The translations under genes and the position numbers were made by a program. This document shows, one piece after another, positions 66 to 50,857 of a DNA stretch of 64,000 nt (positions are counted from its first letter, which is position 1; every line of letters starts with the position of its first letter). Below the pieces are notes generated by a model. That model was not told where the DNA came from. It was given only the letters and a program-made list of their open reading frames with translations, and ran no database searches. The stretch covers positions 62,001-126,000 of the forward strand of contig NZ_PJCH01000016.1 of the NCBI RefSeq assembly GCF_002943565.1. The letters run 5' to 3'. This DNA is from Hyphococcus luteus (GTDB lineage: Bacteria > Pseudomonadota > Alphaproteobacteria > Caulobacterales > Parvularculaceae).

Positions 66-521
66 ATGAGATCTTCCGTTTACGTCGCCGCCCTCGCCGC
101 GGCATTGTCGAGCGGCGCAGCGTCCGCAGACGAAGTTAAAGTATTCGAAGGCGGCCGCTATGTACGCGTCGTCGCCGTTCCCGCCCAGGAGCAGATCAAG
201 CCGCTGCAGACGATTGTGTCGGTCACTTTCCCGCGGCGGGAGATCGCGACTGTTGGCGACGCAGCAAAATATCTCCTGCGCCGCACTGGTTACGCGATGC
301 TTGCGGTCGACGCCGAAGCTTTTCCGGACCACGCCAGGGTTGCGAGCTTTCCCTTGCCGGAAATCCATCGCCGCTTCGACGGGGTGACCATCGCGTCGGC
401 GCTGGAGGCGCTCGCCGGCGGCGCCTACCGGCCGGTGATCGATGACGCCGAACGGACGGTCGTTTTCGAACTCAAGGAAGACGTCGATCGAGACGGCATA
501 CGCCGCAAGCGCGGGATTTGA
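66..521 (+). CDS. pilL: PilL-like ICE protein (TIGR03748 family, PFGI-1 class)
   Basis: This 151-residue exported protein has a signal peptide ending near Ala-Ser-Ala (residues 19-21). It carries the family pattern of an N-terminal GRYVRV strand, a VVAVPAQEQIKPLQ segment and a VGDAAKYLLRRTGYAML segment. In PFGI-1-class elements this short PilL-like protein opens the transfer operon and is presumed periplasmic; its biochemical role is not established. It is followed after 31 bases by the PEGA protein gene and then by the conserved transfer genes. The start is preceded by GGAG at 53-56, and the leader GGAGCCGTGACCCATGA recurs almost exactly before the gene at 60290. Family call from remembered signature; function inferred. 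Confidence 0.75.
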   Translation: MRSSVYVAALAAALSSGAASADEVKVFEGGRYVRVVAVPAQEQIKPLQTIVSVTFPRREIATVGDAAKYLLRRTGYAMLAVDAEAFPDHARVASFPLPEIHRRFDGVTIASALEALAGGAYRPVIDDAERTVVFELKEDVDRDGIRRKRGI

Positions 522-31694: not shown

Positions 31695-31707
31695 TATGGA
31701 GACAGAG

Positions 31708-32295
31708 ATGACCACTGCGGAATCAATTCTGCGATATACGGAGCCCCTGCCCGAAGGCGCGCCGATCGCCGCGAAGGAGCTGTTGCACCTTGGCGAACGC
31801 GCGAGCATCGACCAGGCGCTCTCCCGGCTTGTGAAACGCGGCGCGCTCATCCGCGCGGGCCGCGGCGTCTATACGCGTCCCGTCTCCTCACGTTTCGGCA
31901 AGCGGGCACCCACGCCGGAGAAGTTCATCAAGCAGCTTTCCGCACGCACCGGTGAGACCGTCGCGCCGAACGGCGCGGCGGCGGCGAACATGCTCGGACT
32001 GACCACCCAGAATCCCTCCGCCCTAGTTTACCTGACATCCGGCCGAACGCGATCTCTGTCGCTCGGCGGGCAAAAGGTCGAACTGCGCCATGCGGCGCCT
32101 TGGATGCTGCTACGGCCTTTGGCGAAATCGGGACATGCTGTCCGCGCCCTTGCCTGGATGGGAAAGGAACGTGCAGCCGAAACCACAATGCGCCTCGGCG
32201 GCGCTTTGAATGCGACTGAAAAACAGGAATTGCTCTCCATGCGGACACGCATGCCTGAATGGATGGCGAAAGAGTTGAGCAGCCTTGCCGCCTGA
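31708..32295 (+). CDS. AbiEi-type antitoxin/transcriptional regulator (DUF6088)
   Basis: This 195-residue protein has an N-terminal winged-helix domain (AKELLHLGERASIDQALSRL, then KRGALIRAGRGVYTRP) and a C-terminal AbiEi-like region. It should repress the operon through the inverted repeat overlapping its promoter and neutralise the nucleotidyltransferase toxin encoded next, as in AbiE type IV toxin-antitoxin systems. ATG 31708 has GGAGA six bases upstream; the in-frame ATG 31696 lies only a few bases past the expected transcription start. The end overlaps the toxin gene. Confidence 0.85.
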   Translation: MTTAESILRYTEPLPEGAPIAAKELLHLGERASIDQALSRLVKRGALIRAGRGVYTRPVSSRFGKRAPTPEKFIKQLSARTGETVAPNGAAAANMLGLTTQNPSALVYLTSGRTRSLSLGGQKVELRHAAPWMLLRPLAKSGHAVRALAWMGKERAAETTMRLGGALNATEKQELLSMRTRMPEWMAKELSSLAA

Positions 32296-33331
32296 CGAAC
32301 AGCATCCTCCCTTCCTCTCCCTGCCCGAGCCGGACAAAGCCGAGGCGCTTGCGATCGCGGCTGATCAAACGGGGCGACCCATGCATCTGCTCGAAAAAGA
32401 CGCATGGGTCGTCTGGACGCTGAAGACGCTCTTCGAAGCTCCGTTTGGAGATAAGTTGGTGTTCAAAGGCGGTACGTCGCTCTCCAAAGCGTATAAAATC
32501 ATCAATCGCTTCTCGGAAGACATCGACCTTACTTACAATGTCACCGCTCTCATCCCTGAACTCGCAAGCAATGCTGACGGCTTGCCGAAAAATCGATCGC
32601 AGGCAAACAAATGGACCAAGGAGATCCGACAACGGTTGCCGGAATGGGTATCTGAAACAACGCTGCCAACCATAGGAAAAGCGCTGCAGGAAGATGGCCT
32701 TACCGCAGAGCCGTCAGTAGACGGCGACGCGCTCATTATAAGCTATCCGCCAGCGAGCGCTGGCAGCGGATATGTAAAGCCAGTTGTCCTTGCCGAATTC
32801 GGCGCCCGCTCCACGGGCGAACCCTCAAAGGAAATCGGCATTGATTGCGACGCGGCCCCTGCGCTCCCAATGCTTGCCTTTCCATCAACTACCGTTCGCG
32901 CCATGACCCCCGAGCGGACGTTCTGGGAAAAGGCGACCGCAGTTCATGTCTATTGCGCCGGCGGCCGTAATCGAGGACGCCCCGCTTTCGCGCGCCATTG
33001 GCATGACCTCGGCCGTCTCCACAACGCCGGAACGGCTCAAAGCGCCATTGCAGACAAATCGCTTGCCGCCGCTGTTGCTCAGCACAAGACGCTCTTTTTC
33101 CGGGAGCCGGGGCCGGACGGAGGCGCTATCGACTATAACCTCGCAGTCAACGGAGCGCTTAACCTCATCCCGGACGGAGACCGCCTGAATGAACTTCAAA
33201 AAGACTATGAGGCAATGGTCGCGGATGGCCTTCTACTGAACGACGCCTCGACCTTTGAGGAGTTGTTGAGCATCATCAAAGAAGTCGAAACAATCGCCAA
33301 TTCAGCGCATAAAAAAACATCAGCGACATGA
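32285..33331 (+). CDS. AbiEii/AbiGii-type nucleotidyltransferase toxin
   Basis: A 348-residue nucleotidyltransferase of the AbiEii family. The active-site signature is FKGGTSLSK (GGTS at 62-65) followed by SEDIDLTY with Asp79 and Asp81. Related toxins add nucleotides to tRNA acceptor ends or other targets and cause growth arrest on phage infection. The likely start is TTG 32285, inside the antitoxin gene; an ATG 32 codons later would remove conserved sequence. The start of the next gene overlaps the stop (ATGA). Confidence 0.85.
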   Translation: MPPDEQHPPFLSLPEPDKAEALAIAADQTGRPMHLLEKDAWVVWTLKTLFEAPFGDKLVFKGGTSLSKAYKIINRFSEDIDLTYNVTALIPELASNADGLPKNRSQANKWTKEIRQRLPEWVSETTLPTIGKALQEDGLTAEPSVDGDALIISYPPASAGSGYVKPVVLAEFGARSTGEPSKEIGIDCDAAPALPMLAFPSTTVRAMTPERTFWEKATAVHVYCAGGRNRGRPAFARHWHDLGRLHNAGTAQSAIADKSLAAAVAQHKTLFFREPGPDGGAIDYNLAVNGALNLIPDGDRLNELQKDYEAMVADGLLLNDASTFEELLSIIKEVETIANSAHKKTSAT

Positions 33332-34149
33332 CCGATTTCGAGCCGCCCGATATTCCCCCACTACGCAAAGTGAAAAATGACGGCAGTCCCTATGTCAGGC
33401 AGCCGCAGATCGAGTCACGACTCCCTGAGTTGCTTTCGCTACCTCTGGAAGCGTTTTCAGATCGAGCCCTCATCAAAAACCGGCGCGACCCTGATTACAT
33501 CCCGTCAGAAATCCTGATGCATCGGCTGAGAAGATGCCGTCGGCATAATTCGAATGCTGAATTCGACGCCATATTTTCAATTGTTTCTGAACGCATCAAA
33601 CGCGCCTGCCCCAAGGCCGAAACCCGCATCGAGGACAAGCCCGCGGAAATCTCCCACCTCGCGGCCATCCTGGAACAGACCCTCGACAGATTTACCGAAC
33701 TCGTCCTGCTAGACCGTCAGGATTATGAGGAACGTCTGGACATTTTCGAAGCCGTGTTCGACCGAGCCGTCGTCACCCTCCGACACAGCGCCATTCGAAA
33801 AGTCATGACACGTCAAAAGCCCCTCGCCCCTCTTGAATATGACGAGAGCGGCGATGTTCCTGCTGAGGTCGAGGAGAGTCTGGATTTTCTCGGACCCCAA
33901 TCCCTGTCCCCGGAAGAGGAACTCACTTACCGGTTTCAAGTTCGGGCCGCGATTGACTCTCTCCCGGAGGAAGAAAGGAGAGTTATCGAGATGCAGGAAG
34001 CGGGAATTCAGGACGAAAGCAAAGATGAAGATACCCCCTCGATCTCGCGTATCATCGGGCGCACGCCCAAAACAGTACGCGCCATCCGTAGCCGGGCCAT
34101 CAAAAAACTGAGAGAAAAGCTTGGAATAGAGGTTCACCATGACGTCTGA
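33328..34149 (+). CDS. Sigma-70-like protein (region 4 clear)
   Basis: A 273-residue protein. Its C-terminus is a clear sigma-70 region 4: AAIDSLPEEERRVIEMQEAG, then SISRIIGRTPKTVRAIRSRA and IKKLREKLG, a helix-turn-helix. A helical block around residues 115-170 (RFTELVLLDRQDYEERLDIF) may be a divergent region 2. A long N-terminal extension has no recognised fold. It could direct RNA polymerase to island promoters or act only as a DNA-binding regulator. It overlaps both neighbours, placing it in the AbiE-to-UvrD operon. Confidence 0.7.
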   Translation: MTDFEPPDIPPLRKVKNDGSPYVRQPQIESRLPELLSLPLEAFSDRALIKNRRDPDYIPSEILMHRLRRCRRHNSNAEFDAIFSIVSERIKRACPKAETRIEDKPAEISHLAAILEQTLDRFTELVLLDRQDYEERLDIFEAVFDRAVVTLRHSAIRKVMTRQKPLAPLEYDESGDVPAEVEESLDFLGPQSLSPEEELTYRFQVRAAIDSLPEEERRVIEMQEAGIQDESKDEDTPSISRIIGRTPKTVRAIRSRAIKKLREKLGIEVHHDV

Positions 34150-34705
34150 ATATGATCCAGAAGACGTCCTTTCCGACTTCGCAATGGAACAGCCGCTCAA
34201 TCACGCGGTTCTGCGTGATTATATCTGCCGTTATCCAGAATTAGCGCTCGAACTGACAGATCTCTTCCACGAACTGACTCTGTGCGACCTGGAAGTTCAA
34301 ATCGACGCCGCAACGCTGGAAACCAAATCTGTCAAAGAAGTGACGGCGAAAGGTTTCGCTGCTTTGGACGCAGCCTTCTCCGGCGAGGGTTTAAGAGCAT
34401 TCGCGAAGTCTATCGGTTTGCCGCGCGATTTTTTGTGCGGGTTCAGAGACGCCAAGGTTCGGGTTGAAACCGTCCCTCTCCCCATCCTGTTGGGCCTTGC
34501 TCGTAAGCTCGGCGTTGGTGTCCATATTTTCCTGACCTATCTTCAGTCACGGCCGCAGAATCAAACAGCGCTCGCTTTCAAAGCAGACAGCAAACCAACC
34601 CCTCAGGCCGCTCTGGATTTCGAGACCTTCGTCGGAAACCTGGGACTGACAGAAGCGGAGTCGGCCGCGTTAAAGCGGCTGGGCGAACGAGATGGATCCG
34701 CTTGA
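34139..34705 (+). CDS. HTH-like regulator paired with the sigma-like protein
   Basis: A 188-residue acidic protein of no family I can name. Residues about 77-118 ([18 protein letters not shown] then [14 protein letters not shown]) look like a degenerate XRE-type helix-turn-helix. The C-terminus ([20 protein letters not shown]) is another helical pair. By position between the sigma-like gene and an ImmA-UvrD fusion, it may be an anti-sigma factor or a repressor cleaved by the ImmA protease (inference). GAGG precedes ATG 34139; both ends overlap neighbouring genes. Confidence 0.6.
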
Positions 34706-37700
34706 AGTCGCCCGCCAGCGAGCCGCCGCGTTACACAAAGCGCTCGTTGATGGTGGCGCGAGCCCGAATGATCCCTATGCCTTTGTTCTTCGCGAAGCCG
34801 AGCGACGTGATATCGAAGTCCGATCCTATCCTCCAGGAGACCAGATGCTGGAGGGAGGGCGCGCCCTCCTCGATCCCGAAGCCCGTTCGATACGCCATGA
34901 GCAAACAGGCGATAGATTTCTCGACGCCTTCTTCGTAGCTCACGAAATCGGCCACGATGAATTTGGCGGCCGTGTCGATCTCTCGGCGACGTCCGAAATG
35001 GACCTTGCGCGCTCGGCTGATCCCGCCGCGACGGGCGCCGACCGGGTAGTCGATTACAGCCAAAAGGCCCGCCAGGAAGTCCAGATGGACCTATTCGCGA
35101 GGGAGTTTCTGCTGCCCCGCCCGGTCGCCAGACAGTGGCATGTCGAACACGGAATGTCAGCCGCCAAGATCGCTGAAAAGCTCGGCGCTCCTTACGATAT
35201 GGTCGCCGTGCAACTCTTCGACGCACTCCTCCTGCCAGACGTGCAGCTTGAGCAAGTAAAACCAGCCTCGCCAAAGCCGCTCAATGTAAAGCAATCAGAT
35301 GCAGCATCCCACGACGGACCCGCCCTTTTGCTAAGGGCCGGTCCCGGCACCGGTAAAACCCAGACCCTGATCGGTCGCCTCTCCTCCTTGAAGGACAAAT
35401 CGATCGATCCCGCCTCTATCCTTGTGCTGACCTTTTCCAACAAGGCTGCCGAGGAGATGACAAACCGGGCAATGCAGGTTTGGCCAGATGCGGCGGGCTC
35501 GCTTTGGATCGGTACGTTCCACGCCTTCGGGCTCGACCTTATCCGGCGGTTTCATGATCGTCTTGATTTGCCTCAGGATCCGAGGCTCCTCGATGCCGCC
35601 GAAGCGATTTCCCTTCTGGAAAATGAGTTTGCACGTCTCGATCTCAAGCATTTCCGCGATCTCTGGGATCCGACCGATAAGCTGCGCGATATCCTTTCCG
35701 CAATTTCACGCGCAAAGGATGAGGTTGCCGACGCTGATCTTTATGCGGCGCTTGCGCAAACCATGCGTGACACCGCCACGAACGATGACGATCGTATCCG
35801 AGCGGAAAAATGTCTGGAGATTGCGACCATCTACCAGACCTACGAAATCCTGAAGGCACAACACGGGGCGGTTGATTTCGGCGATCTCGTCGCCCGACCC
35901 GCCTCACTTCTCGAAAACGACTCTTCTGTGCGGAATCAGCTCCGAACGAGATATAAACATATCCTCGTCGACGAGTATCAGGACGTCAATCGCGCAAGCG
36001 TCCGCCTCCTGACCGCACTCAAGCCAAGCGGCGAAGGGCTCTGGGTCGTCGGTGACAGCAAGCAGTCAATCTACCGATTCCGCGGCGCATCCTCATACAA
36101 TATGTCGCGTTTCGGTAATGAGGATTTCCCAGGCGGCGTGGTCAAGGATCTGCTGACCAATTATCGTTCGCGCCAGGAGATCTGCGATGCTTTCGCCGGC
36201 TTCGCCTCCCAAGAAATGATCGCAGCGGAGCCTGGTTTCTCCGTAGATGCGCACCGCGGCGCTTCCGGTCTCAAGCCGCTGCTCGTCACGGTCGGTACAA
36301 AAGACGACGAACTGGAAGAGATCGCAGCACGCATTAAAGCGCTTGAGGCAGCTGGCGTTCCGTATAAAGATCAGGCGGTTCTCTGCAAGGCGAATGATCG
36401 CCTTTCCGAAGTTGCCGGAGGGCTTGAAGGTCGCGGCGTGCCTGTCCTTTTTCTCGGCCCGCTCTTTGACCGACCAGAAGTCAAGATCGCTCTTTCTCTA
36501 CTTTCGTTGTTGGTCGATCCGCGCGCCATGGGCCTCGCCGCTACCTCTCGGCTCCCCGAATTCTCAATCCCACTCAACGACATCGCAGAGTGTGCCAGCG
36601 TCCTGGCGACGGCATCGGGACTCGCACCGCTCGAATGGAAGACTCGCCTCGCCGAGTCGAGCGTGCTTTCCAGGTCCGGAAAAGTCGGCTTTGACGGATT
36701 GGTGGAGGCGTTACGGGATTTGTCGCCCGAAACAACGCCCTGGCGCGCCTTCGCCTCCATCTATCTCGATCATTCCCGTCTCGCTGCCAAGGCCCATCAT
36801 GACATCGCCGCCGGAAACCCGCTTCCGGCAATCGCCTTATGGCAGTTCCAGAATTTCCTTAGATCAGCGCGTTACGAACGGCGCGGATTTCCGATTACGG
36901 ATCTCCTGAACCACATCCGCCGCCTCGTGGTGCTGGCAGATGAACGTGAACTTCGTGACCTTCCCGCCGCCGCTCAATCATTGAATGCCGTTCGCCTGCT
37001 GACTATCCACAAGAGCAAGGGGCTGGAGTTCAAAGCGTTGCACTTGCCGTCATTGACGAAAGGCTCGCTTCCTCAACACGCAGGACAGATGCGCGGACTT
37101 CCGCCGCCAGACGGCATGATCGAAAGTGCGCCGCATCGGGGTGAAGACGCCCTCAAATCCGGGCATGACGAAGAACAGGAATGTTTGTTCTTTGTCGCGC
37201 TGTCCCGTGCCGAAGATCGCCTCATTCTTTACGCCCCGTCCTTGCAAAAGGGAGGACGGCGTCAAAACCGTTCGCCCTTCATTGATCGCATTGCCGATCT
37301 CCTGGTGTCCGAAAAACCCTTATCCGGCAACGGCGCCGACACGTCGCCGGAGCGAAGGGTCGAGGTCTCCTTTGACAGCCCTCTCACGATCTCTCCGGCG
37401 CAGCTTGCCCTCTTCGAGAAATGTCCTCGGAGATTCTTTTACACCCATGTCCTGCGGCTCGGCGGGCGGCGCACAGAAACCCCTTACATGAAAATGCACG
37501 CTTCGGTTCAGTCGGCCATCGATGCATTGCTTCGCGGGGATGACGACGATTTCGAGCGTCACTGGGCGGAACGGGGACCGGCGGACGATCCGAACGCCGC
37601 CGCCTATAAAGCGGCGGCGGAAAGGCTCCTTGGCTATTTGAAACGGCTGCGTGACGGCGATGAGCCGCTTCCGCTGGAAGAACTGAGCTTTGACATTGGC

Positions 37701-38069
37701 GACGCAAAGATCGTCGTGAGGCCCCATGATCGCGTCCGCGCCAGAGATGGCCGCATCATACTGCGCCGCATCTGGACCGGCCGCCAGACTTCCGGCGCGA
37801 TGGAAGATCTCGACGCCACGGCTTTCCAGCTGGCTGGCGGCACCTCAGCCAATATTCAGTTCGTCTTTCTGACGGACGAGATCGCCGAGCCGGTGCACCT
37901 CACAGGCACCAAGCTAAATAATCGTCGGGATCGGATCGAAACGGTTGTCGCCGCTATCCAAGTGGGATCATTTCCCGCCGCACCGAGCCGCTCCTGCCCT
38001 CGCTGCCCTCACTTCTTTATCTGCTCCGACCCGCCTGCCGGTCGGCTTCTTAAAAAAAACCTCTTCTGA
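34692..38069 (+). CDS. ImmA/IrrE protease fused to UvrD-type helicase with AddB-like Fe-S domain
   Basis: This 1125-residue protein has three parts. The N-terminus (about 1-170) is an ImmA/IrrE-type metalloprotease with the zinc motif HEIGH at 84-88. Then comes an SF1 UvrD/AddA-like helicase: Walker A GPGTGKT (217-223), motif II DEYQD (427-431), [17 protein letters not shown] and [15 protein letters not shown]. The C-terminal PD-(D/E)XK-like region has an AddB/Cas4-type cysteine set: Cys911, then Cys1102, Cys1105 and Cys1111 (CX2CX5C). The nuclease core reads [20 protein letters not shown], so the usual catalytic DxK is missing and nuclease activity is doubtful. It overlaps the upstream gene. 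Confidence 0.85.
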
Positions 38070-38078
38070 CTTACCGGT

Positions 38079-38132
38079 TCGCGCCACCGGGCGCGATTGA
38101 CCTTCTGCAAGCGGGCGCGAGGTCGCGCTCGC
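38079..38132 (+). promoter_or_regulatory. Tandem GC-rich hairpins between the helicase and ubiquitin-like genes
   Basis: Two stem-loops fill the 85-base gap. The first is TCGCGCC (38079-38085) with GGCGCGA (38090-38096) around a four-base loop. The second is GCGGGCGCGA (38111-38120) with TCGCGCTCGC (38123-38132), ten pairs including one G-U and a two-base loop as drawn. Neither is followed by a T-run, so they could be weak or factor-dependent terminators or mRNA processing sites that set off the ubiquitin-like cassette. Confidence 0.45.
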
Positions 38133-38154
38133 CCCAATAGAAGGACTTTGTTTA

Positions 38155-39069
38155 GTGACTGATTTTCCTGACGAAAACGATGTCGACGACCTCGCCGAGG
38201 CCGTCCGCGACAATCGCCCCCTGCGTGCTGGGGCTCGCTTCCGCGTGCTCATGGCAGATGAGACGCTCGACTTCAAGCCCGTCATCTTTGACGACCCGAA
38301 GCCGCTCGGCCGCCAATTCGTTGAAGCGGTCGGCGGGGCGCCCGTTCACGAATATGTCGCGATCGCCATTCTGCCCGATGGCGATTTCGAGGATATCCGA
38401 CTCGATGAGCAGTATGATCTACGCGGCCGCGGTGCCGAGCGCGTGCTCGTCGTCCGGACCGACCGGAAATTTCTCTTCAAGATCGACGACGCTGATCTTG
38501 AATGGCCGCGCCGTTTCATCAGCGGTTTCGTTGCGAAAAAACTCGCCCGACTCGCGCCCAACTACGCGCTCTGGCTCGACGTTCCGGGCGGCCACGACCA
38601 AAAGATCCAGGATTGCGATCTCATCGATCTCGGCAAGCCGGGCGTTGAGCGCTTTATCTCGATTATCGACGAAACGACCGAAGGACGGGAGCTGATCCCG
38701 TCCGCGGACCGCAGCTTCCTCGAGAGTCACGACGTCGCCTTCGAGGTGCTCAACGAGGGCGGGAAGATCGCCGTGATTCTCGAGGACTTTCCGCTTCCGG
38801 ACGGCAAGTTCGATCACGCGACCGCCGACATTTTGATCATCTTGCCGCCGGGCTATCCGGACGTGGCGCCCGATATGTTCTACACCTCGCCGCGCCTCAA
38901 ACTCGCCAGCATCGGACGTGAACCGCGGGCCGCCAACGCCGCTTACGATTTCGGCGGCCGTACATGGCAGCGCTGGTCTCGCCACTGCAACGCCTGGCGG
39001 CCCGGCATTGACGGGCTGCAGACCATGGTCGCCCGCGTACGTCGCGCCCTTGAAGAAGCGCGCGCCTGA
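38155..39069 (+). CDS. Tandem ubiquitin-like domains fused to a prokaryotic E2 (family E)
   Basis: A 304-residue protein. Residues about 28-100 and 104-170 are two beta-grasp repeats of the multiubiquitin type, the second ending DLIDLGKPGVERFISI. Residues about 178-304 match prokaryotic E2 family E: LIILPPGYPDVAPDMFY and then TWQRWSRHCNAWRPGID. Cys278 is the only cysteine in the E2 part and the candidate catalytic residue. There is no terminal diglycine, so a ubiquitin-like unit could only be released by processing within the chain. The GTG start has GAAGGA upstream. The stop overlaps the E1-JAB gene by one base. Confidence 0.8.
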   Translation: MTDFPDENDVDDLAEAVRDNRPLRAGARFRVLMADETLDFKPVIFDDPKPLGRQFVEAVGGAPVHEYVAIAILPDGDFEDIRLDEQYDLRGRGAERVLVVRTDRKFLFKIDDADLEWPRRFISGFVAKKLARLAPNYALWLDVPGGHDQKIQDCDLIDLGKPGVERFISIIDETTEGRELIPSADRSFLESHDVAFEVLNEGGKIAVILEDFPLPDGKFDHATADILIILPPGYPDVAPDMFYTSPRLKLASIGREPRAANAAYDFGGRTWQRWSRHCNAWRPGIDGLQTMVARVRRALEEARA

Positions 39070-40466
39070 TGACTGAGCTCGACCTCATTCTGCAGGCGCC
39101 GCACGAGGCCGATATTCGGTCCTTGCTGTCGATGGGAGCCGGCGTCGAAACCGCCGGCTACCTCCTTTTTGGCCTCGCCGACATCGCCGCGGACCCCTGG
39201 AGCGGGCGTCCGCGGCGGCGTTTCGTCTCGCACGCGTTTCGCTCCATTCCCGCAGCGCACGCGGTATCGGCCTCAGCCGTCCATGTCACCTGGTCGACGG
39301 ACGGCTTCATGCGGCTACTAGGCGACGCCGTAAATGAGGGGCTCATTCCCGCCATCGTGCACACCCACCCCGGAGGTCCCGCCGCATTTTCCGGCCAGGA
39401 CGACCGTAATGAAGCGGAGCTTGCGCGAACGGCCTCGCTGAAAGGCGCTCCGGGGTTAATCAGCCTCCTAATTAATGGCGAGGGCTTGATCGCCGCACGG
39501 TATTGGGCCGGGCGAGATCGGCACGAACCAATCTCCCGCATTCTACATGCCGGTTCGCGGATTACGATTACAGAGACGGCGGGCCCTGGCGTCTCGCCGG
39601 ACTTCCTCGATCGTCAAATCCGTCTTTTCGGGGATAGGGCCAATGCGACGATCGCAAATCTTCGGTGCGGCGTAGCCGGCGGCGGCGGGACGGGCAGCGC
39701 AGTGCTTCCGCTGCTAATGCGTCATGGCGTGCGCAACGCCATATTGTTCGAAAAGGATGCTGCGGACCATTCCAATCTCAATCGTCTCCACGGCGCCCGC
39801 CGCACTGACGCCGATGTGGGGGCGCCGAAAGCCGAGATCCATCAACGCACTGTCCGTGAAGCCGATCTAGGCATGAATCTCGTCACACTGAACGCTTTCG
39901 CAGGCGATCCGGAAAGTTGGGATGCATTGAAGGCCTGCGACGTGATCTTTTCTTGTACGGACGATCACGCCGGCCGTCTCTTTCTCAACCGGTTCAGTCG
40001 TTTCTACGGCATCCCCGTTATCGATGTGGGTCTCGCGATGCAGCGGCGCACTGACGGCGGTTTCGACCTTTTTGCGCGGGTCTCGACGCTTGTGGCGGGA
40101 CATGCCTGCCTCGTCTGCGGAAACAATGTCAATCCCCGCCGCGCCCGAGAAGAAACCCTGATGCGACGCGATCCGGACGCCTACGAGGCGTTGAAAAAGG
40201 AAGCCTATGTGCTGGGCGAAGGCGAGCCTGCGCCTGCCGTCGCCGCTTTCACGACGGAAGCAGGCTGTCTAGCGATTGGCGAACTCCTTGCCGCGGTGAC
40301 CGGGTTTCATGGCGACTCCGGCATGCGCCCCGTCCGTATCCGGCGGTTTCACGCCTGCGACGACCGGTTTCCAGCGATCGCAAAGAGTCCAGAGTGCCCG
40401 GCTTGCGAAGCGACCTCCACGCTGGGCCGCGGCGACTGCGATCCCTTTTTGGACATGGTGACGTGA
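39069..40466 (+). CDS. JAB-type deubiquitinase fused to a ThiF/E1-like activating enzyme
   Basis: This 465-residue fusion begins with a JAB/JAMM metalloprotease domain: Glu27, and HTHPGGPAAFSGQD giving His98, His100, Ser108 and Asp111, a complete zinc site. From about residue 180 it is a ThiF/MoeB-like E1: GGGGTGS (204-210) for ATP, then KDAADHSNLNR, and structural zinc pairs CLVC (347, 350) and CPAC (443, 446). Cys in TTEAGCLAIGEL is a candidate catalytic residue. One chain thus offers activation and deconjugation of a ubiquitin-like protein, whose substrate is encoded immediately upstream. Confidence 0.88.
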   Translation: MTELDLILQAPHEADIRSLLSMGAGVETAGYLLFGLADIAADPWSGRPRRRFVSHAFRSIPAAHAVSASAVHVTWSTDGFMRLLGDAVNEGLIPAIVHTHPGGPAAFSGQDDRNEAELARTASLKGAPGLISLLINGEGLIAARYWAGRDRHEPISRILHAGSRITITETAGPGVSPDFLDRQIRLFGDRANATIANLRCGVAGGGGTGSAVLPLLMRHGVRNAILFEKDAADHSNLNRLHGARRTDADVGAPKAEIHQRTVREADLGMNLVTLNAFAGDPESWDALKACDVIFSCTDDHAGRLFLNRFSRFYGIPVIDVGLAMQRRTDGGFDLFARVSTLVAGHACLVCGNNVNPRRAREETLMRRDPDAYEALKKEAYVLGEGEPAPAVAAFTTEAGCLAIGELLAAVTGFHGDSGMRPVRIRRFHACDDRFPAIAKSPECPACEATSTLGRGDCDPFLDMVT

Positions 40467-40467
40467 T

Positions 40468-40842
40468 ATGAAGAGCTTGTTCATCAATATCGTCCGCCGC
40501 CTTGGGTTCCTGAAGGCGGATTTTATCGCCGAGACGAGGCCGCGCCTTCCCAGACAGGACGGATCCGTCTCGCCGGATTTCGTGCTCGCCAAGGACGGCG
40601 GGATCAAAAAATGGGCGTCCTTGCGCTGTCCTGGCGGCTGCGGACGACGGATCGATCTCTCACTCAACCCTCATCAGCGGCCTCGCTGGTCCGTCACCCT
40701 TGATTGGTGGCGACGCCCGACCGTCAGCCCATCGGTTCACCAGCGAAACGCCTGCGGGTGCCATTTCTGGATAAAAAGGGGCCAGGTGAACTGGTGCAAG
40801 AACGGACGGCCGCAAATGCACTTGAATGCCGCGAAGAAATAA
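40468..40842 (+). CDS. DUF6527 protein of the ubiquitin-like cassette
   Basis: A 124-residue protein starting one base after the E1-JAB stop. It has the DUF6527 pattern: a hydrophobic basic N-terminus (LFINIVRRLGFLKADFI), KKWASLRCPGGCGRRIDLSL, RWSVTLDWWRRPTVSPSV, then ACGCHFWIKRGQVNWC. Cys54, Cys58, Cys96, Cys98 and Cys110 could bind zinc. The family is found next to prokaryotic E1/E2/JAB genes; a RING-like or substrate-binding role is possible but unproven. Tight spacing supports one operon of three genes. Confidence 0.75.
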   Translation: MKSLFINIVRRLGFLKADFIAETRPRLPRQDGSVSPDFVLAKDGGIKKWASLRCPGGCGRRIDLSLNPHQRPRWSVTLDWWRRPTVSPSVHQRNACGCHFWIKRGQVNWCKNGRPQMHLNAAKK

Positions 40843-40972
40843 CTTGCGGGAATAAGGCTTTGGGTGGTGTTTTGAAGAAGTTATTGTCGCCTTTACAGCG
40901 GCGATTTCTGATCCGCTATTTCCTCAGATCGCGCATTGTCTGCGCCCTGAGAAGGAGAGTTTGGAGATTCCG

Positions 40973-42102
40973 ATGGCCTTTCGCCTGATTCATGCGTCTG
41001 ACCTACACCTCGGTAGGCGGTTTGCAAATATTCCGCAGCCGCCGGACGGAAATATCCGTGGTCGGCTCATGGAGGCGCGGCATGCGTCGATTTCCCGAAT
41101 TGCAAAGGTTGCTCATGACAGAAATGCAAAGCATATCCTCCTCGCAGGGGATACGTTCGACACCGCAACGCCCTCAGATTCGGTGGTGCGGCAGGCCCTT
41201 ACCGCCATGGGTGAGAATGCGGACATTCACTGGTGGCTCCTGCCCGGCAATCACGACAATCTGAAGGATGCAGAGCCTCTCTGGGAAACGATCACACGCG
41301 ACGCGCCCGCGAATGTACACGCGCTGGCCGACGCGTCGGCCGTCGAACTGGCGCCTAAGATATTTCTTTTCCCCTGCCCGGTCGCTTTTCGTTCCTCTGG
41401 ACGCGATCTGACAGCGAACTTAATGGATATACCGGCGACAAAGGGCGCCTTGCGGATCGGTCTCGCGCATGGTGGCGTCGTCGATTTACCGACAGCGGTG
41501 CTCACATTCCGCCCGACAGAGACCGTAGCGCCCGGCTCGATTATCTTGCGCTTGGCGACTGGCACGGACGTCTCCAAATCAGCGATCGCACACATTATAG
41601 CGGCAGCCCCGAACAGGATCGGTTCAAGCATGGACGGCGCGGTGTCTGCCTGAGCGTGACATTAGAAGGTCCTGGCGCGCCGCCTACGGTCGAAGAGGTC
41701 GAGACGGGCGCGTTTCTGTGGATCAACACCGAATTACCGCTTCTTCCGAACACGGATTGTGCACGAGCGCTGGAGGCGGTGTTACCAGATGAAGGCCGCC
41801 GCGACATTCTGATCCGCGTCCGAGCGACAGGCTGGGCCAGTCTGCAACAGCAAGCGGATTTGCGCCAGGCGGCTGCTCGTCTCGGGCCGGACTTTGCGCA
41901 CTTCGACTTTGATACGAATATGCTCGGCACAACCTACGACGACGCCGACCTCGATGACATCGACAAGGCAGGCGCGCTCCGGCTTGCTGCAAATCGCCTA
42001 AAAGAAGGCACCGAGTCGGAAACGCTATCCGCAGAGGAACGCGCTGTGTCGGCTGGCGCTCTCGCCCGCTTGTATGCATATGTGAAGGAGGCGGCGGAAT
42101 GA
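40973..42102 (+). pseudogene. SbcD/Mre11-like nuclease gene with a one-base frameshift
   Basis: The first part (from ATG 40973, TTGGAG upstream) encodes metallophosphoesterase motifs DLHLG, GDTFD, GNHDN and AHGG. The frame then runs out of register. Reading one frame over from about 41485 gives FTDSGAHIPPDRDRSARLDY followed by LALGDWHGRLQ, the missing last catalytic motif (GDWH), and continues to the stop at 42102. The break is at the TTT run 41485-41487: one extra T would restore a single 376-residue SbcD-like protein. Either a real mutation or a sequencing error in a homopolymer. The repaired gene overlaps the SbcC-like gene by ATGA. Confidence 0.85.
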
Positions 42103-44717
42103 GAATTCGATCTATTTCTCTCAACAACGTCCGGCGCTTCACCAGTCCTGTCCGCCTGGAGGGATTGAGCAACGGGCTCAACGTCCTCTGTAAACCGAAT
42201 GAGTTCGGCAAGTCCACTCTGTTCGATGCGCTACAGGCGGTCTTCTTCAAGGCCCACAGTTCGAGCGACAAGGACATCAAGGCACTCCGTCCGCATGCGG
42301 GCGGCGCGCCGGAAGTCACCGTCGAAATCGAAACTGACGATGGCCGCTTCACGATCGCCAAAAGATGGATGTCGAAACCTTCCGCCACCATCGAGAAGGA
42401 CGGCAGGCTAATTGCGCAGGCCGATGAAGCCGAGTCCTGGATCTCGCAGCTGCTTGGCGGCGGGGATGGCGGACCCTCGGGCCTTCTCTGGGTTCGCCAG
42501 GGACTGACCGCCTTGACGGAGGGGTCAAAGAAGGAACAGAAAGCAGCGCTGGAAGCTAGGCGCGATCTTCTTTCCTCTGTGACCGGAGAAGTCGAAGCCA
42601 TGACAGGCGGTCGCCGGATGGACATGGCGCTGGCGCGATGTCGCGAGGAACTCCTCAACTTCGCAACGCCGAAAGGACGACCGAAGGCAGGCGGACCGTG
42701 GAAAGCTGCCGAGGAACTCGTCGAAGCTCTTCTCGCCGAGCACAAGAATCTAGCCACCACTGCGACAAACCTTCGCCATGACCTGAAGGAGCGCAAACGC
42801 AAGCGCCGCGAGTTGACGGAATTGGAAGATCCGGAAGCTGCCGCCTCGCGCAAAGAGCGCCTGAAGGACGCGACCGCCGAACTCCAGGCCGCAGAGCGCC
42901 ATGCAGAGGCGGTTGAATCTGAATCCCGGAAAGTCGACGCAGCGCGTCTCATCGTAACAAACCTTAAAACGCGCCTCACGACCCTGAGGGACTCCACAAA
43001 GGAGCGAACCGATGCCGAGGAAGCTGTCGCGAACGCCTCCAAGGAGGCTACGGCGGCAAGTCTCAATCTTGAGTCGGCTGAAGCGACACGTGCGAAGGCC
43101 CAACTGCAACTCAAAGAATCGCAGATCGCCTATAAGAACGCACTAGATGCGCTTCGTGCATCGCAACGCCGGCAAGCAGCGCTGGATGGCGCTGAGAGAC
43201 GGAAAGAACTTATTGAGCGAATTAAGAATGCACAGACAGCGCGTAATAACATGGAATCCGCCGCTGCGGAGGCGAAGCGCGGACCCGATTCCAAATCGCT
43301 GCGTCAGCTGGAAGATCTGGCTTCAGACTTGACCACTGCACGCGCCATCCGTGACGGCGAGGCGGCGCAATTGATCATGGCTTATGACGAGGGCTCCGAA
43401 GGCAAGATCAAACGCAATGGCGAGGAATTGCCGGGGGACCGTCCGTTGGCGATCCCCAATGGCGCGGATCTCGCTATTGAAGGCATCGGTGTCCTGACAG
43501 TCAGCGCTGGTACGGGCGGTCAGGACGACGGGTCTGTAGATAAGGCCGAAAAAGCGCTTTTCGCTGCGCTCGAACGACATGGCTGCACCACGATTGAAGA
43601 AGCCCGTAACGCCGCAGAGGCCAGAGATGCGGCGGAACACCGTCGTATGGAAGCGAAAGCGTCACTCGATTCGCTTGCCCCTGACGGCATTGAGGACCTA
43701 CGTGCCAAGCTTGCCGCGATCCCCGAACTGAAAGAGGTTGAGGAGGATGTCCCTCCGCTGGCGGATGCTGAGCAGCTCTTGGCGCAGGCCGATGACACGC
43801 GACTCAAAGCCGAAACCAGTCGGACCGCCGCAACAGACCACCTCTCAGACGCCCGTTCGACCTCTTCGCGCATAGATGCTGAATTGAAGGCCGCGCAAGA
43901 ACGTCTCTCAAGAGCGACTGCTTCTTTGGGCCGACTCGGCGACACTGACGAAACAGCCCTCAACGATGAGCTGCGTCGCGCCACGACAGCGCTTGAAGCT
44001 GCCGAAGCGCTGCATTCGGAGAAGGTCCGGTCCTCCCCGGATCTTGCAGCCGCCGAAGCGAAGCTCAAACGAGCCCAATCGGTCGAGGAAACAGCCCGCG
44101 CTGAAATCGTCCGGCTCAAACCTGAACTAGCGACGCTCGACGAGCGTATCGCCCGAAGTGCCGGCGACGCCGTTGAAGAACGGCTTGCCGAGACCGATCA
44201 GAAGCTTGAAGTCGCGCAGGCCACGCTTGCTAGGATCGAACAGGAGGTTGCCGTCCTTCTGAGATTGGAAACAGTGCTTGAAGAAGCCCGCAGCGACGCG
44301 CGAGAACGCTATTTCGAACCAGTCGCCATCGAATTGAAGCCGCTCTTGCAACTTCTCTGGCCCGACGCGGAGCTCTCCTGGGGCGACAAGACGTTGTTGC
44401 CGACGGCCCTGATCCGTAATGGACAGGAAGAGCCGATTGAGATTCTCTCAGGCGGCACGAAGGAGCAGGTCGCCCTCCTAGTCCGTCTTGCTTTCGCCCG
44501 AATGCTCGCAAAGCATGGACATAATGCTCCCGTGATTCTCGATGACGCCCTGGTCTTCACTGACGATGACCGGATTGAACTAATGTTCGACGCGCTGCAC
44601 CGGCAAGCCGACGACCTACAGATTCTCGTCTTATCCTGCAGGCAGCGCGCATTCCGAAACCTCGGCGGCAATTCCGTGCGCGTGACAACCCGAAGCCTAT
44701 CGAGCAACACGGCGTGA
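42099..44717 (+). CDS. SbcC/Rad50-like SMC-family ATPase
   Basis: An 872-residue ATPase: N-terminal Walker A NEFGKST (starting near residue 34), long coiled coils to each side of a central hinge (about 430-470), and a C-terminal signature LSGGTKEQVALLVRLAFARM (from 783) with Walker B APVILDDALVFTDD. It pairs with the SbcD-like nuclease to process DNA ends, as SbcCD or Rad50-Mre11. The hinge lacks a CxxC zinc hook; instead it has a beta-rich insert (KIKRNGEELPGDRPLAIPNG). It is shorter than housekeeping SbcC (about 1050 residues), closer to accessory YhaN-like proteins. Confidence 0.82.
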   Translation: MRIRSISLNNVRRFTSPVRLEGLSNGLNVLCKPNEFGKSTLFDALQAVFFKAHSSSDKDIKALRPHAGGAPEVTVEIETDDGRFTIAKRWMSKPSATIEKDGRLIAQADEAESWISQLLGGGDGGPSGLLWVRQGLTALTEGSKKEQKAALEARRDLLSSVTGEVEAMTGGRRMDMALARCREELLNFATPKGRPKAGGPWKAAEELVEALLAEHKNLATTATNLRHDLKERKRKRRELTELEDPEAAASRKERLKDATAELQAAERHAEAVESESRKVDAARLIVTNLKTRLTTLRDSTKERTDAEEAVANASKEATAASLNLESAEATRAKAQLQLKESQIAYKNALDALRASQRRQAALDGAERRKELIERIKNAQTARNNMESAAAEAKRGPDSKSLRQLEDLASDLTTARAIRDGEAAQLIMAYDEGSEGKIKRNGEELPGDRPLAIPNGADLAIEGIGVLTVSAGTGGQDDGSVDKAEKALFAALERHGCTTIEEARNAAEARDAAEHRRMEAKASLDSLAPDGIEDLRAKLAAIPELKEVEEDVPPLADAEQLLAQADDTRLKAETSRTAATDHLSDARSTSSRIDAELKAAQERLSRATASLGRLGDTDETALNDELRRATTALEAAEALHSEKVRSSPDLAAAEAKLKRAQSVEETARAEIVRLKPELATLDERIARSAGDAVEERLAETDQKLEVAQATLARIEQEVAVLLRLETVLEEARSDARERYFEPVAIELKPLLQLLWPDAELSWGDKTLLPTALIRNGQEEPIEILSGGTKEQVALLVRLAFARMLAKHGHNAPVILDDALVFTDDDRIELMFDALHRQADDLQILVLSCRQRAFRNLGGNSVRVTTRSLSSNTA

Positions 44718-44952
44718 AGGCACATTTTGCATCCCTGCTGAGGTGAATCGATGAAGTTAACCAGTTCAAGATCAAATTCGGCGGACCATCCTCATGCCAT
44801 CGAGTTCGACTCGCTCACGCAGCATCCAACCAGAAGTTTTTAATTACCGGTTCGATACGCCAATCCCGCATCCAATTCGCCCGAGGAAAAAGCGGTAAGG
44901 CAGGATTTACGCGAACTCGGCAATCTTCCAAATCGCGAAGAACCGTGGCCTT

Positions 44953-47900
44953 TTACTTCATGATCGTTCGATTTTCAGCCTTAACGACATTTTCAATGAG
45001 GGCTTTACGTACATAGCTCCCGACCAGCACTTCGATTTCTTCGCCCTGTTCCGCGCCAAGCAGCGCCGTGGCAAGCGGCTCATGCGCGGATATTATTCCG
45101 TTATCAGGATCGTTCAACTTGTCGTTTATGATTACCTGCAGGGTGGATTGTGAGCCAGTAAGGTAACGAACCCGGACCTGATCGCCGATTTCAATGAAGG
45201 GAGATGGGTTGGAGGTCTGCAGCGCTTCAGCAGAGTCTTCTGCCTGCCGTTCTTTCGGGTCACCCGGCGTTTGCGCATCCAGTTCGATTTGCGATTTAGC
45301 CAGCCTTTCAGAAGGCGCGGCCGCCAAGTCGCTTTGGACATCTTCCAGGACGTGCTCAGGGGGTGCTGGTGGCGTAAAGCGTTCTCGCTGAGACGACAAT
45401 TCGGCGAGCCTTGCTTCGATGGATTCACGCAACCGCTGCGCCTCGCGAATGGGATCGTTAAACCAGTCTGTCGACCAGATGCGATGGAATTTCCAGCCGC
45501 GGCGTTCCAGCACTTCCTGCCGCAAGCGATCGCGATCCCGCGCCGAACGGCAAGAATGATAGCTTGCCCCGTCACATTCTACGGCCAGGATATATCCGTA
45601 TGGCCAATCCGGATGTTTCACGCCAATATCTATGTAATAGCCGGCTGCGCCGACTTGAGGCACTGGCTCGCAGCCCATCGACTTGAGCTGTTGAATCACA
45701 TAATCCTCAAAATCGGAATCCGTGCTCGCATGTGATTGGTCGGTCGCTTCGAGAACGCCGCTCGCGGAATATTCCAGCCAGCGCTTGAGCATGTATGTGC
45801 CGGGATTGAAATTCTCGTCGGCGCGGATATCAGACGGCCTCATCGAAGAGAATGTCACGATTTGCAGCTTGGCGCGGGAAAAAAGAACATTGAGCCTGCG
45901 CCGCCCCGCTTTTCCATTGATCGGGCCGAAGCGCTGCATAACGGGTCCACCCGGCTGCTCCGGACCGTATACGGTGCCTATGAAGATGACATCCCGCTCG
46001 TCGCCTTGAACATTTTCAAGGTTCTTAATGAAAAACGACTCAAGCCCGTCATTGCGTACCGCCCAATCCTCTACGTATGCATTCGCAGCGCGATCCTTAT
46101 CGAGGGCATAGTTCATTTCATCGATCAACAGGTCACGCTGTTTTTGATTGAGCGTAACAATCCCTAAAGATCTATCCGGAAAGGTTTGCATAAAGCGAAT
46201 GGCCGCTTCGACGATGGCTTGTGCTTCATCGAGATTAACTCCTGATCTATAACGTCCTTCCACCGGTACGAGCGATACGCCCATATCGGCGCGCTGTTCG
46301 GATGCGGACGGGAAAATCACCAGATCGTTGTGATAGACCAGCTCATTTGAAAACCGAATAAGCCCGGAATGTTGCGAGCGGTAATGCCACCGTAGGCGCC
46401 GTGCCGGGCGAAAGCGGGAATTCGCGATTTCAAGAATCGATTCCTCGTCAACCAGAGCATCTTCGTCTTCATCTTCGCCGTCATTCAGCATCTTCTGAAA
46501 GAAGTTGGACGGCGGAAGCTGGTTAGTATCACCGACAATCATGGCTTGGGAGCAACGCGCAAGAGCGCCGATAGCATCTTCCGGCCGCATCTGCGACGCT
46601 TCATCTATGATGCAGAGGTCAAAGGAAACCTCGCCCGCAGGAAGATACTGCGCGACAGCCAACGGCGACATCATCCAACACGGCTTAAGCTCTTGAAGCG
46701 AACGCCGTGCGCGTTGCGTCAGGTCACGCACAGCAATGAATCTTTGTTTCTTGCTCGTTTCGTTCTCAAGCAAAGCCATTTCTGTCCAGCGTGATTTTGG
46801 CCCCGATCCAATGCCTGACGGAGGATTGGCGCTGCCCGCGACCATAGACCGGAGTTGTTGTTGGGCTAAACGTATTATTTGCGAATCGAGGCCGGCAAGT
46901 TTCGCTCGAAGCGCATCGAGCTGCGTACCAGGAAAACGGTCAAGCACAGCCCCGTGCGTCGACATGAGCTGGAGCGCCATAGCGCGAATAACAGAAGCTT
47001 CGATGATTTCGCCAAAGCCTCTTAGCGCCTGTTCTTGGCCCAATAGCGCTGTCGTCGCCCAGCCGAAGCCTAGCTCATCGACGCGGCGGCGAGCGCGGGC
47101 GTATTTCGCATGTGCCTGAAGGCCGGATTCATCACTGCACGCGGCATCAAGAAAAACAGCAACTTCACCGTGATCTCTGCCTTCCGTGATTTGCGATTGT
47201 GGAATATGCGAGCGATCACAAAGCGCTTCAAGGGCTTCACGGGCGAACGCATCGCGTTCTTGCACGCTTTGAAGCGCTTTCAAGCAGGGTATAATCGAAC
47301 CCGCCTCAACTTGCGTCAGGATTTCATCGGCATAGGCATCATTTGATGTAGCGATTTGAGCGATCGTCAAATTCCGCGCTAGCTCTTCGATATCGGTTAC
47401 GGCTCCGTGGAATTTGTCTTCAAGAGTGCCTGCAATCACTGTATCGCTATCAAGTTCATGTTTACGTTTAACATTCGCCTCAATTTGCTTGGCAAGTTCC
47501 AGCAGAGCGTCAATGCGCATTTTTGCAGGCGCTATGAAGCAATTGCACAGCTCTTTTAATTCCTGGTGCGCCGCTTCGAGCGCCTGGGTTTGCGATGCAA
47601 GTTCGGCACGTTTACGGGAAAGATCAGAGATTTTTCCGTCCCACTGCGTTTTTGGAAGCTCGGGAACGGCAAGGAGCGCATCTAAATCGCCTTCCTTTAA
47701 AAAGTTGCGCAGATTGCGGTTGCCATTGCCTTTCAGGCGTTGGTCTACTTTCTCGTAGTAATGGCCAAGCCTTTCAAACGCATCAAAATCCGTCTCTATA
47801 CCTTTGAAATGCATGCCGAAGCAGGCTTTGGCTTGCTCATCTGCCAGAAACTTCGCTTCCGAAGCTTTCCAATCCGCCAGAGCCTGAAGCTGCCGAACGC

Positions 47901-50463: not shown

Positions 50464-50857
50464 GGATTTCCTCCCCTGTCGAGCACACGAAACTGGCAGC
50501 ACTGGCCGGAGCTACTGGGCGCGAATTAAACGCTGTGGAAACGCTACAAATGCGGTTACGCTAATCGCAGTTTGAGTTAAAATCGCTTAAAATCAATAAT
50601 TTGTTAATTGTTCAGCGTGCGCTTAATTTTTTAGAGGAATGACTACAGATATTCAACAATCATTCTGTGAAGAAGAATAGTCACAAACACGCTCATAGTG
50701 GTAGGAGTCTGACGGATAGCACCGTCGATCAGGCGATGGAATCCAGCGTTCTGCCGATTTGCACGGACTCATCCGTTCGATTTCTACCGCCAGCTAATTC
50801 AGTCTGAAGCTAAGAATAAGACGCCGACTGGCCAACGTGAGCTTAAGGATTCCGGGC

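Follow-up and report, generated by a model that had tools for sequence, protein, structure and literature searches.

A fused Bub operon, probably encoding a precursor, in Hyphococcus luteus and the ImmA/IrrE-UvrD gene upstream of it

Closest described systems

The closest described relatives of the locus treated here, a three-gene cassette for ubiquitin-like (UBL) proteins in Hyphococcus luteus, are operon type 6e of Iyer, Burroughs and Aravind (2006) and the Bub (bacterial ubiquitination-like) operon of Citrobacter. Row 6e of Table 1 in the former contains a polyUbl protein, an E2/RWD-like protein, a JAB-E1 protein and a metal-binding protein, and a polyUbl-E2 fusion is listed with it. The Citrobacter operon is represented by solved chains in the Protein Data Bank (PDB; 9ea4, 9ea5, 9ea8, 9eae, 9eav, 9d59). 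The stretch analysed here, called the window, covers 64,000 nucleotides (contig NZ_PJCH01000016.1, positions 62,001 to 126,000), and coordinates are counted from its first letter. Its cassette (38155-40842) is a fused Bub operon that probably encodes a precursor, and it belongs to a kind already known. All components of type 6e are present, including the polyUbl-E2 fusion, and the gene order, the fusions and the joining of UBL and E2 halves at a glycine are those of Citrobacter. A previous sequence-only reading had considered the chemistry unusual; the layout is already found in row 6e and in the Citrobacter chains. The available passages of Iyer et al. on this type differ in discussing neither a junction glycine nor a helicase neighbour.

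The Citrobacter BubA chains in the PDB end with DVNNG; compared with the homologous plasmid ORF (open reading frame), chain 9eae_C of BubB takes up at the residue directly after. This chain is numbered 238 to 361, continuing BubA 155-229, so that the strain studied very probably encodes a single chain. In C. freundii pOZ181, BubA and BubB form one ORF of 362 residues, and this homologue is also accompanied by a DUF6527 gene; no plasmid record identical to the Citrobacter PDB chain was found, the best reaching 83.5%. The Citrobacter type has an additional beta-grasp domain and the ending NNG, whereas the window has two beta-grasp domains and TTEG. Two Citrobacter plasmid operons also have other regulators upstream than the three genes (the trio) that precede the operon in the window. 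The multi-ubiquitin protein of Methylobacterium (8u38, 9d5b) is about 40% identical to the UBL1-UBL2 pair of the window, but its chains have no part matching the E2 domain and, by PDB title, form a filament.

Genes and domains of the operon

The products of the three genes are named P0001 (UBL-UBL-E2, corresponding to BubA-BubB), P0002 (JAB-E1, corresponding to BubCD) and P0003 (the DUF6527 protein).

38155..39069, plus strand: P0001 gene, 304 residues, GTG start
38236..38463, plus strand: UBL1, first beta-grasp domain, P0001 residues 28-103 (Multi_ubiq; strands and helix of the model; match to 9d5b and 8u38)
38467..38685, plus strand: UBL2, second beta-grasp domain, P0001 residues 105-177, ending T-T-E-G (Multi_ubiq; model; fold match to BubA)
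38674..38685, plus strand: TTEG, P0001 residues 174-177, putative UBL C-terminus and processing site, with the predicted cut after Gly177 (termini of relatives)
38686..39066, plus strand: E2 family E (BubB-like) domain, P0001 residues 178-304, without a conserved cysteine (Pfam; alignment; fold match)
39069..40466, plus strand: P0002 gene, 465 residues
39099..39458, plus strand: JAB/JAMM protease domain, P0002 residues 11-130 (Pfam; active-site conservation)
39609..40400, plus strand: E1/ThiF adenylating domain, P0002 residues 181-444, CxxC pairs 347/350 and 443/446 (Pfam; structure match; alignment)
40468..40842, plus strand: P0003 gene, DUF6527 protein, 124 residues (Pfam; alignment; model)

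Pfam matches far beyond chance are found for all three proteins: Multi_ubiq over two stretches (6e-25) and Prok-E2_E (3.6e-45) in P0001, Prok-JAB (1.3e-8) and ThiF (1.2e-28) in P0002, and DUF6527 (6.5e-24) in P0003. The last CxxC cysteine of P0002 falls just beyond the ThiF match. The AlphaFold model of P0001, made from a 29-row alignment, has a mean confidence (pLDDT) of 83 and a predicted template-modelling score (pTM) of 0.47, and consists of two beta-grasp domains and a UBC domain; the joint ahead of the UBC domain (residues 173-178) has pLDDT values below 50. In fold comparison, the E2 part aligns with Citrobacter BubB over 124 residues (Z 19.8, root-mean-square deviation (rmsd) 1.8), and UBL2 (105..177) with BubA (155..229) over 73 (Z 11.0, rmsd 2.4), while the UBL part also matches bacterial multi-ubiquitin chains (Z 11-13). 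The top sequence matches of P0001 among solved structures are likewise multi-ubiquitin chains (9d5b and 8u38 from Methylobacterium, 9d59 from Citrobacter by title) and Citrobacter BubB; that of P0002 is Citrobacter BubCD (E 8e-19). The sequence-only reading had placed the three ORFs at these positions, with the DUF6527 gene one base after JAB-E1, and had proposed two beta-grasp repeats and an E2 family E domain within the 304-residue chain. The coordinates are confirmed, and Pfam, model and fold matches agree on the domains. Relative to a related locus (L008), the three genes have proportions of 0.16-0.25 for nonsynonymous (pN) and 0.75-0.84 for synonymous differences (pS), the latter saturated; judged by this comparison, purifying selection acts on all three. 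The cassette holds the parts of a predicted UBL conjugation system.

The junction glycine

There are 58 loci with an E2 match, 37 with the UBL and E2 parts fused (including L001, the window's own copy) and 21 with them split, a division not to be read as a frequency, as most loci were found through similarity to P0001 and the set was not made non-redundant (several Burkholderiales rows are much alike). In 13 of the 21 split loci the UBL protein ends exactly at a glycine, typically as FFTGxxQTTEG, and in 6 it has two to eight residues beyond the glycine (TTEGAA, TTEGVA, TTEGGVV, QDGAL and longer ones). Locus L040 has a UBL ending in FGL, and no UBL was found in L041. All 37 fused rows keep the glycine at the junction, 34 by motif search and three (L005, L038 and L039, with DNG or VNG) by eye. 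The window has it as the last residue of TTEG (residues 174-177, codons 38674-38685). The distance from glycine to E2 motif is 2-11 residues in 34 fused rows, of variable sequence, with R, D, L, E, Q or A as the next residue. The remark in the sequence-only reading that a terminal diglycine is lacking is literally true but incomplete: the usual C-terminus of the family is a single glycine, kept at residue 177, which resolves the puzzle.

In a midpoint-rooted tree of E2 plus JAB-E1 (58 rows, 582 columns), the fused state requires five changes from a split ancestor (Fitch count). Two fused/split sister pairs (L046/L020 and L054/L053) have a support of 100 each. A single in-frame stop codon parts the UBL and E2 genes in L017-L020, L022 and L053, which is a likely path to fusion. 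Retention of a terminal glycine inside the chain through several separate fusions matches what is predicted for a cleaved precursor. All 37 fused rows and 18 of the 21 split rows have an intact JAMM site; the three that have lost it (L018, L026, L027) are one clade, from Sphingomonas, and their UBLs end exactly at the glycine, so that trimming is not needed. A separate UBL gene elsewhere in the genome was considered and rejected; the search, made with the Multi_ubiq family alone, matched only the two repeats of P0001.

We are fairly confident that P0001 is a BubA-BubB precursor cut after Gly177, within a precursor-type Bub operon that has a JAB cutter and upstream control. Such a precursor would comprise two beta-grasp UBLs with their true C-terminus at Gly177, a flexible joint and a cysteine-less E2-like (BubB) domain. 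The JAB domain of P0002 probably cuts after Gly177; its E1 half would then adenylate the freed di-UBL, and the E2 domain would help in the transfer. Bub systems may work through serine oxyesters, a view that carries no weight in this reading. JAB may also reverse conjugation, and the DUF6527 protein would be an extra component. The upstream trio, a sigma-like protein, a small partner and an ImmA-UvrD sensor protease, probably switches on expression upon DNA damage.

The upstream trio

The least expected part of the locus is the gene upstream of P0001 that joins ImmA/IrrE peptidase and UvrD helicase domains to a nuclease that is apparently dead. It is the last of three adjacent genes.

33328..34149, plus strand: sigma-70 region 4-like DNA-binding protein, first gene of the trio (Pfam; neighbourhood)
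34139..34705, plus strand: conserved controller partner, without a Pfam match (Pfam scan; neighbourhood)
34692..38069, plus strand: ImmA/IrrE peptidase, UvrD helicase and apparently inactivated PD-(D/E)XK domain with conserved cysteines, 1125 residues, probable controller (Pfam; motifs; neighbourhood)

The ImmA/IrrE part (PF06114, 4e-8) has its HExxH motif, HEIGH, at residues 84-88. Conserved across the aligned rows are HExxH, the Walker motifs and the last domain's cysteines. In the D-x-K motif of PD-(D/E)XK nucleases, all rows shown have R, C or S in place of the catalytic aspartate, and the lysine is kept in some (RRVKTG in L010-L016). An alignment of this part to PDB chains gave one meaningless match, so that the assignment as an apparently dead nuclease follows from the motif.

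The complete trio, with a full-length helicase frame, precedes fused two-UBL operons at nine genome-contig loci (L008, L010-L016, L030), and is also found on plasmids L045 and L049; in L047 the helicase is spread over two frames, and L021 shows no helicase match although the first two genes are present. This count is biased, as the loci were chosen through P0001. Where the helicase was the starting point, it was followed by a putative ubiquitin-like operon in all five plasmid regions examined, among 93 records, and all three full-length matches in 289 genomes of the class, the window included, have such an operon (a fourth match, weak at E 9e-5 and covering part of ImmA alone, was excluded). 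The operons behind the helicase are not all of one type. In L063-L066 there are Multi_ubiq, DUF6791-E1 and DUF6527 genes with no E2 gene in between. These loci and L068 (L063, L066 and L068 being closely alike) represent a Bub-like type without JAB and E2, in which a three-UBL protein ends in FNVT(R/K)TxxS, without a glycine; this suggests another chemistry, or none. Behind the same trio, L067 (9507-12441) has a small protein ending in TNG, a DUF7665 protein with a BubB-like WQRH stretch, a weak JAB and a 487-residue Rossmann-like protein without a Pfam match.

According to PMC13373217, the protease CapP is activated by single-stranded DNA and cleaves CapH; of 544 Bub operons, 219 have either CapW or CapH and CapP associated with them. 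The trio resembles CapH and CapP in that an ImmA/IrrE-type peptidase and a DNA-binding partner adjoin an operon of this kind; it differs in the fusion of the peptidase to UvrD and a degenerate nuclease, and in having a sigma-like DNA-binding gene instead of a plain helix-turn-helix (HTH) one. By this analogy the trio is read as a helicase-fused controller of the same general kind, and is probably a DNA-damage controller of the Bub genes. The other role to be considered for the ImmA-UvrD protein is that of the effector nuclease of the system. The combination of UvrD and PD-(D/E)XK is reminiscent of helicase-nucleases, in PADLOC the helicase part is linked to GajB/DRT helicases, and the lysine mentioned above is kept in some rows. 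The fused ImmA is also just weakly similar to the ImmA genes that stand unfused beside Bub operons (26% over 112 residues of that in L051, E 1e-4; nothing significant with those of L053 and L055). On the other hand, the aspartate is replaced in all rows shown, the peptidase and Walker motifs are kept, and unfused ImmA/IrrE plus HTH genes stand divergently beside other Bub operons. We regard an effector role as rather unlikely, and keep to that of a controller. A more far-reaching proposal, which we put forward tentatively as somewhat short of an even chance, is that the fusion is a new type of sensor: the ATP-driven helicase and the inactivated, cysteine-bearing nuclease domain would recognise broken phage or host DNA, trigger the fused peptidase against the sigma-like or the small partner, and so switch on at least three types of UBL operon (JAB-E1 with E2; DUF6791-E1 without E2; DUF7665/JAB of L067). 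No paper on such a fusion was among the matches listed in the literature searches; in PMC13373217 the words "helicase" and "ImmA" are absent, and "uvrD" occurs three times, as an E. coli deletion strain.

JAB-E1, the DUF6527 protein and processing

The JAMM residues E27, H98, H100, S108 and D111 are each present in 37 of 39 JAB-E1 rows, and the CxxC cysteines of the E1 part in 32-33, in agreement with the JAMM site and two CxxC pairs recognised earlier in a JAB-E1 fusion. Cys296 (38 of 39 rows) lies in a CTD motif that is presumed, as in ThiF/MoeB sequences, to have a structural role. At the position of Cys400 there is C in 15, S in 10 and T in 9 rows, so that the shared E1 cysteines are just Cys296 and those of the CxxC pairs.

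The DUF6527 protein is a candidate for the processing protease in place of JAB. In a 37-row alignment, Ser89 and His99 occur in 36 rows (one gap) and Asp79 in 34, which may indicate a serine-protease-like site, and the PS...SH pattern is found in the JAB-less type too. Position 98 is C in 26 rows, A in 7 and S in 3. The gene is present in all 43 loci with at least 517 bases beyond JAB-E1. However, the model (pLDDT 84.5) has no clear match among solved folds, and no solved relative was found by sequence, profile or fold; DUF6527 also occurs where the UBL has no glycine. In addition, the JAB mutant BubCD(D104A) was, by PDB title, solved with BubA(155-229), which indicates JAB as the reader of the glycine, and the intact JAMM site in all fused rows lowers our confidence in a DUF6527 protease slightly further, to the level of an unlikely alternative. 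The protein is probably the small metal-binding protein of Iyer et al. Its cysteines 58 and 96 are lost jointly in L022, L023 and L033, which fits a common metal site or bond.

Several points weigh against a precursor cut by JAB. Cleavage of P0001 is inferred, not observed, and retention of the glycine could instead serve folding, or its reading by E1 in a chain that stays fused. The case for JAB as the cutter is one of correlation, from one JAB-dead clade and the JAB-less, E2-less relatives (L063-L066, L068) whose UBLs end without glycine; DUF6527 occurs in both types, and the relatives of the second type manage without E2 and without the glycine. The UBL might be used uncut, the whole chain being a fused carrier or a filament subunit and no free UBL being made. 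In keeping with this, the PDB titles of 9d59 and 9d5b describe filaments of related multi-ubiquitin proteins, and the E2-less relatives have UBLs without a C-terminal glycine. The presence of the glycine motif in all fused rows after about five separate fusions argues to the contrary, as does the way the Citrobacter proteins were produced for deposition, BubA and BubB being separate chains divided at that very glycine, and we judge uncut use distinctly improbable. Between being cut out and being used in fused form, the two options of the sequence-only reading, the kept glycine and intact JAB favour the former.

The E2 domain

The E2 alignment has 40 rows including the window, from 52 relatives after similar rows were dropped and L001 excluded. 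Residues Y234, D240, W274, H277, W281 and D286 are present in all rows, and S275 in 38, the other two being gapped. The column of Cys278, previously taken as the E2 cysteine, has C in 2 rows (window and L008) and N in 24, and no cysteine is common to the E2 domains. A classical thioester E2 acting through Cys278, suggested by its being the sole cysteine of the window's E2 domain, is thus rejected as hardly credible, the more so as Ser275 and His277 appear as the conserved polar residues near this position, and as the available passages of Iyer et al. (2006) describe the polyUbl-fused E2-like family as lacking the E2 cysteine and call it inactive.

Genomic setting and distribution

Conjugative genes surround the cassette (TraD, TraC, TraG_N, TraI_2, DUF3438, DUF2857, DUF3577, DUF3275), and 134 bases separate an integrase ORF from a tRNA-Pro gene on the contig. 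Near the tRNAs of the contig stretch searched, no attachment (att) repeat of at least 18 bases was found; the element may extend past the end of the contig. The integrative and conjugative element proposed earlier is therefore plausible and unproven. Just upstream of the trio are AbiEi/AbiEii genes (DUF6088, AbiEii; 31696-33331), which stand beside it in at least three loci (window, L045, L063). Behind the operon there are SbcC/SbcD-like genes (40961-44717), of which the SbcD-like part may be split over ORFs 40961-41653 and 41656-42102 in different frames, perhaps by a frameshift; L067 has exonuclease and AAA ATPase genes at the corresponding place. Further on, 44953-50502 (minus strand) encodes an 1849-residue protein with a DUF4011/AAA helicase, an MTES_1575 nuclease and a GreA/GreB C-terminal match, possibly another defence gene.

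The E2 family is rare. With the window's genome counted, it occurs in 7 of 199 relatives, in 4 of 385 genomes of the class (3 above the cut-off) and in 9 of 398 genomes of the phylum (6 above the cut-off). No relatives of P0001 were found in phage records or viral contigs at the settings used, nor DNA of the three genes in E. coli genomes; two E. coli plasmids of another collection carry the three-UBL type. The PADLOC library has no match to P0001 or P0003, and only weak E1-E2 matches to P0002. Membership in Type II CBASS (cyclic-oligonucleotide-based antiphage signalling system; Cap2/Cap3) was rejected, as a Pfam scan of the nine main genes at 33328-50502 gave no cGAS-like CD-NTase family. 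Antiphage defence, a candidate function of the operon, has not been demonstrated for Bub at large according to PMC13373217 (2026).

Significance

The comparison of fused and split loci answers how a UBL that is fused ahead of its E2 remains usable. After about five separate fusions the terminal glycine and an intact JAB site are still present in every case, as a precursor requires; a permanently fused carrier would need neither. In addition, a conserved protease-helicase module accompanies several types of bacterial ubiquitin-like operon, and may link them to DNA damage.

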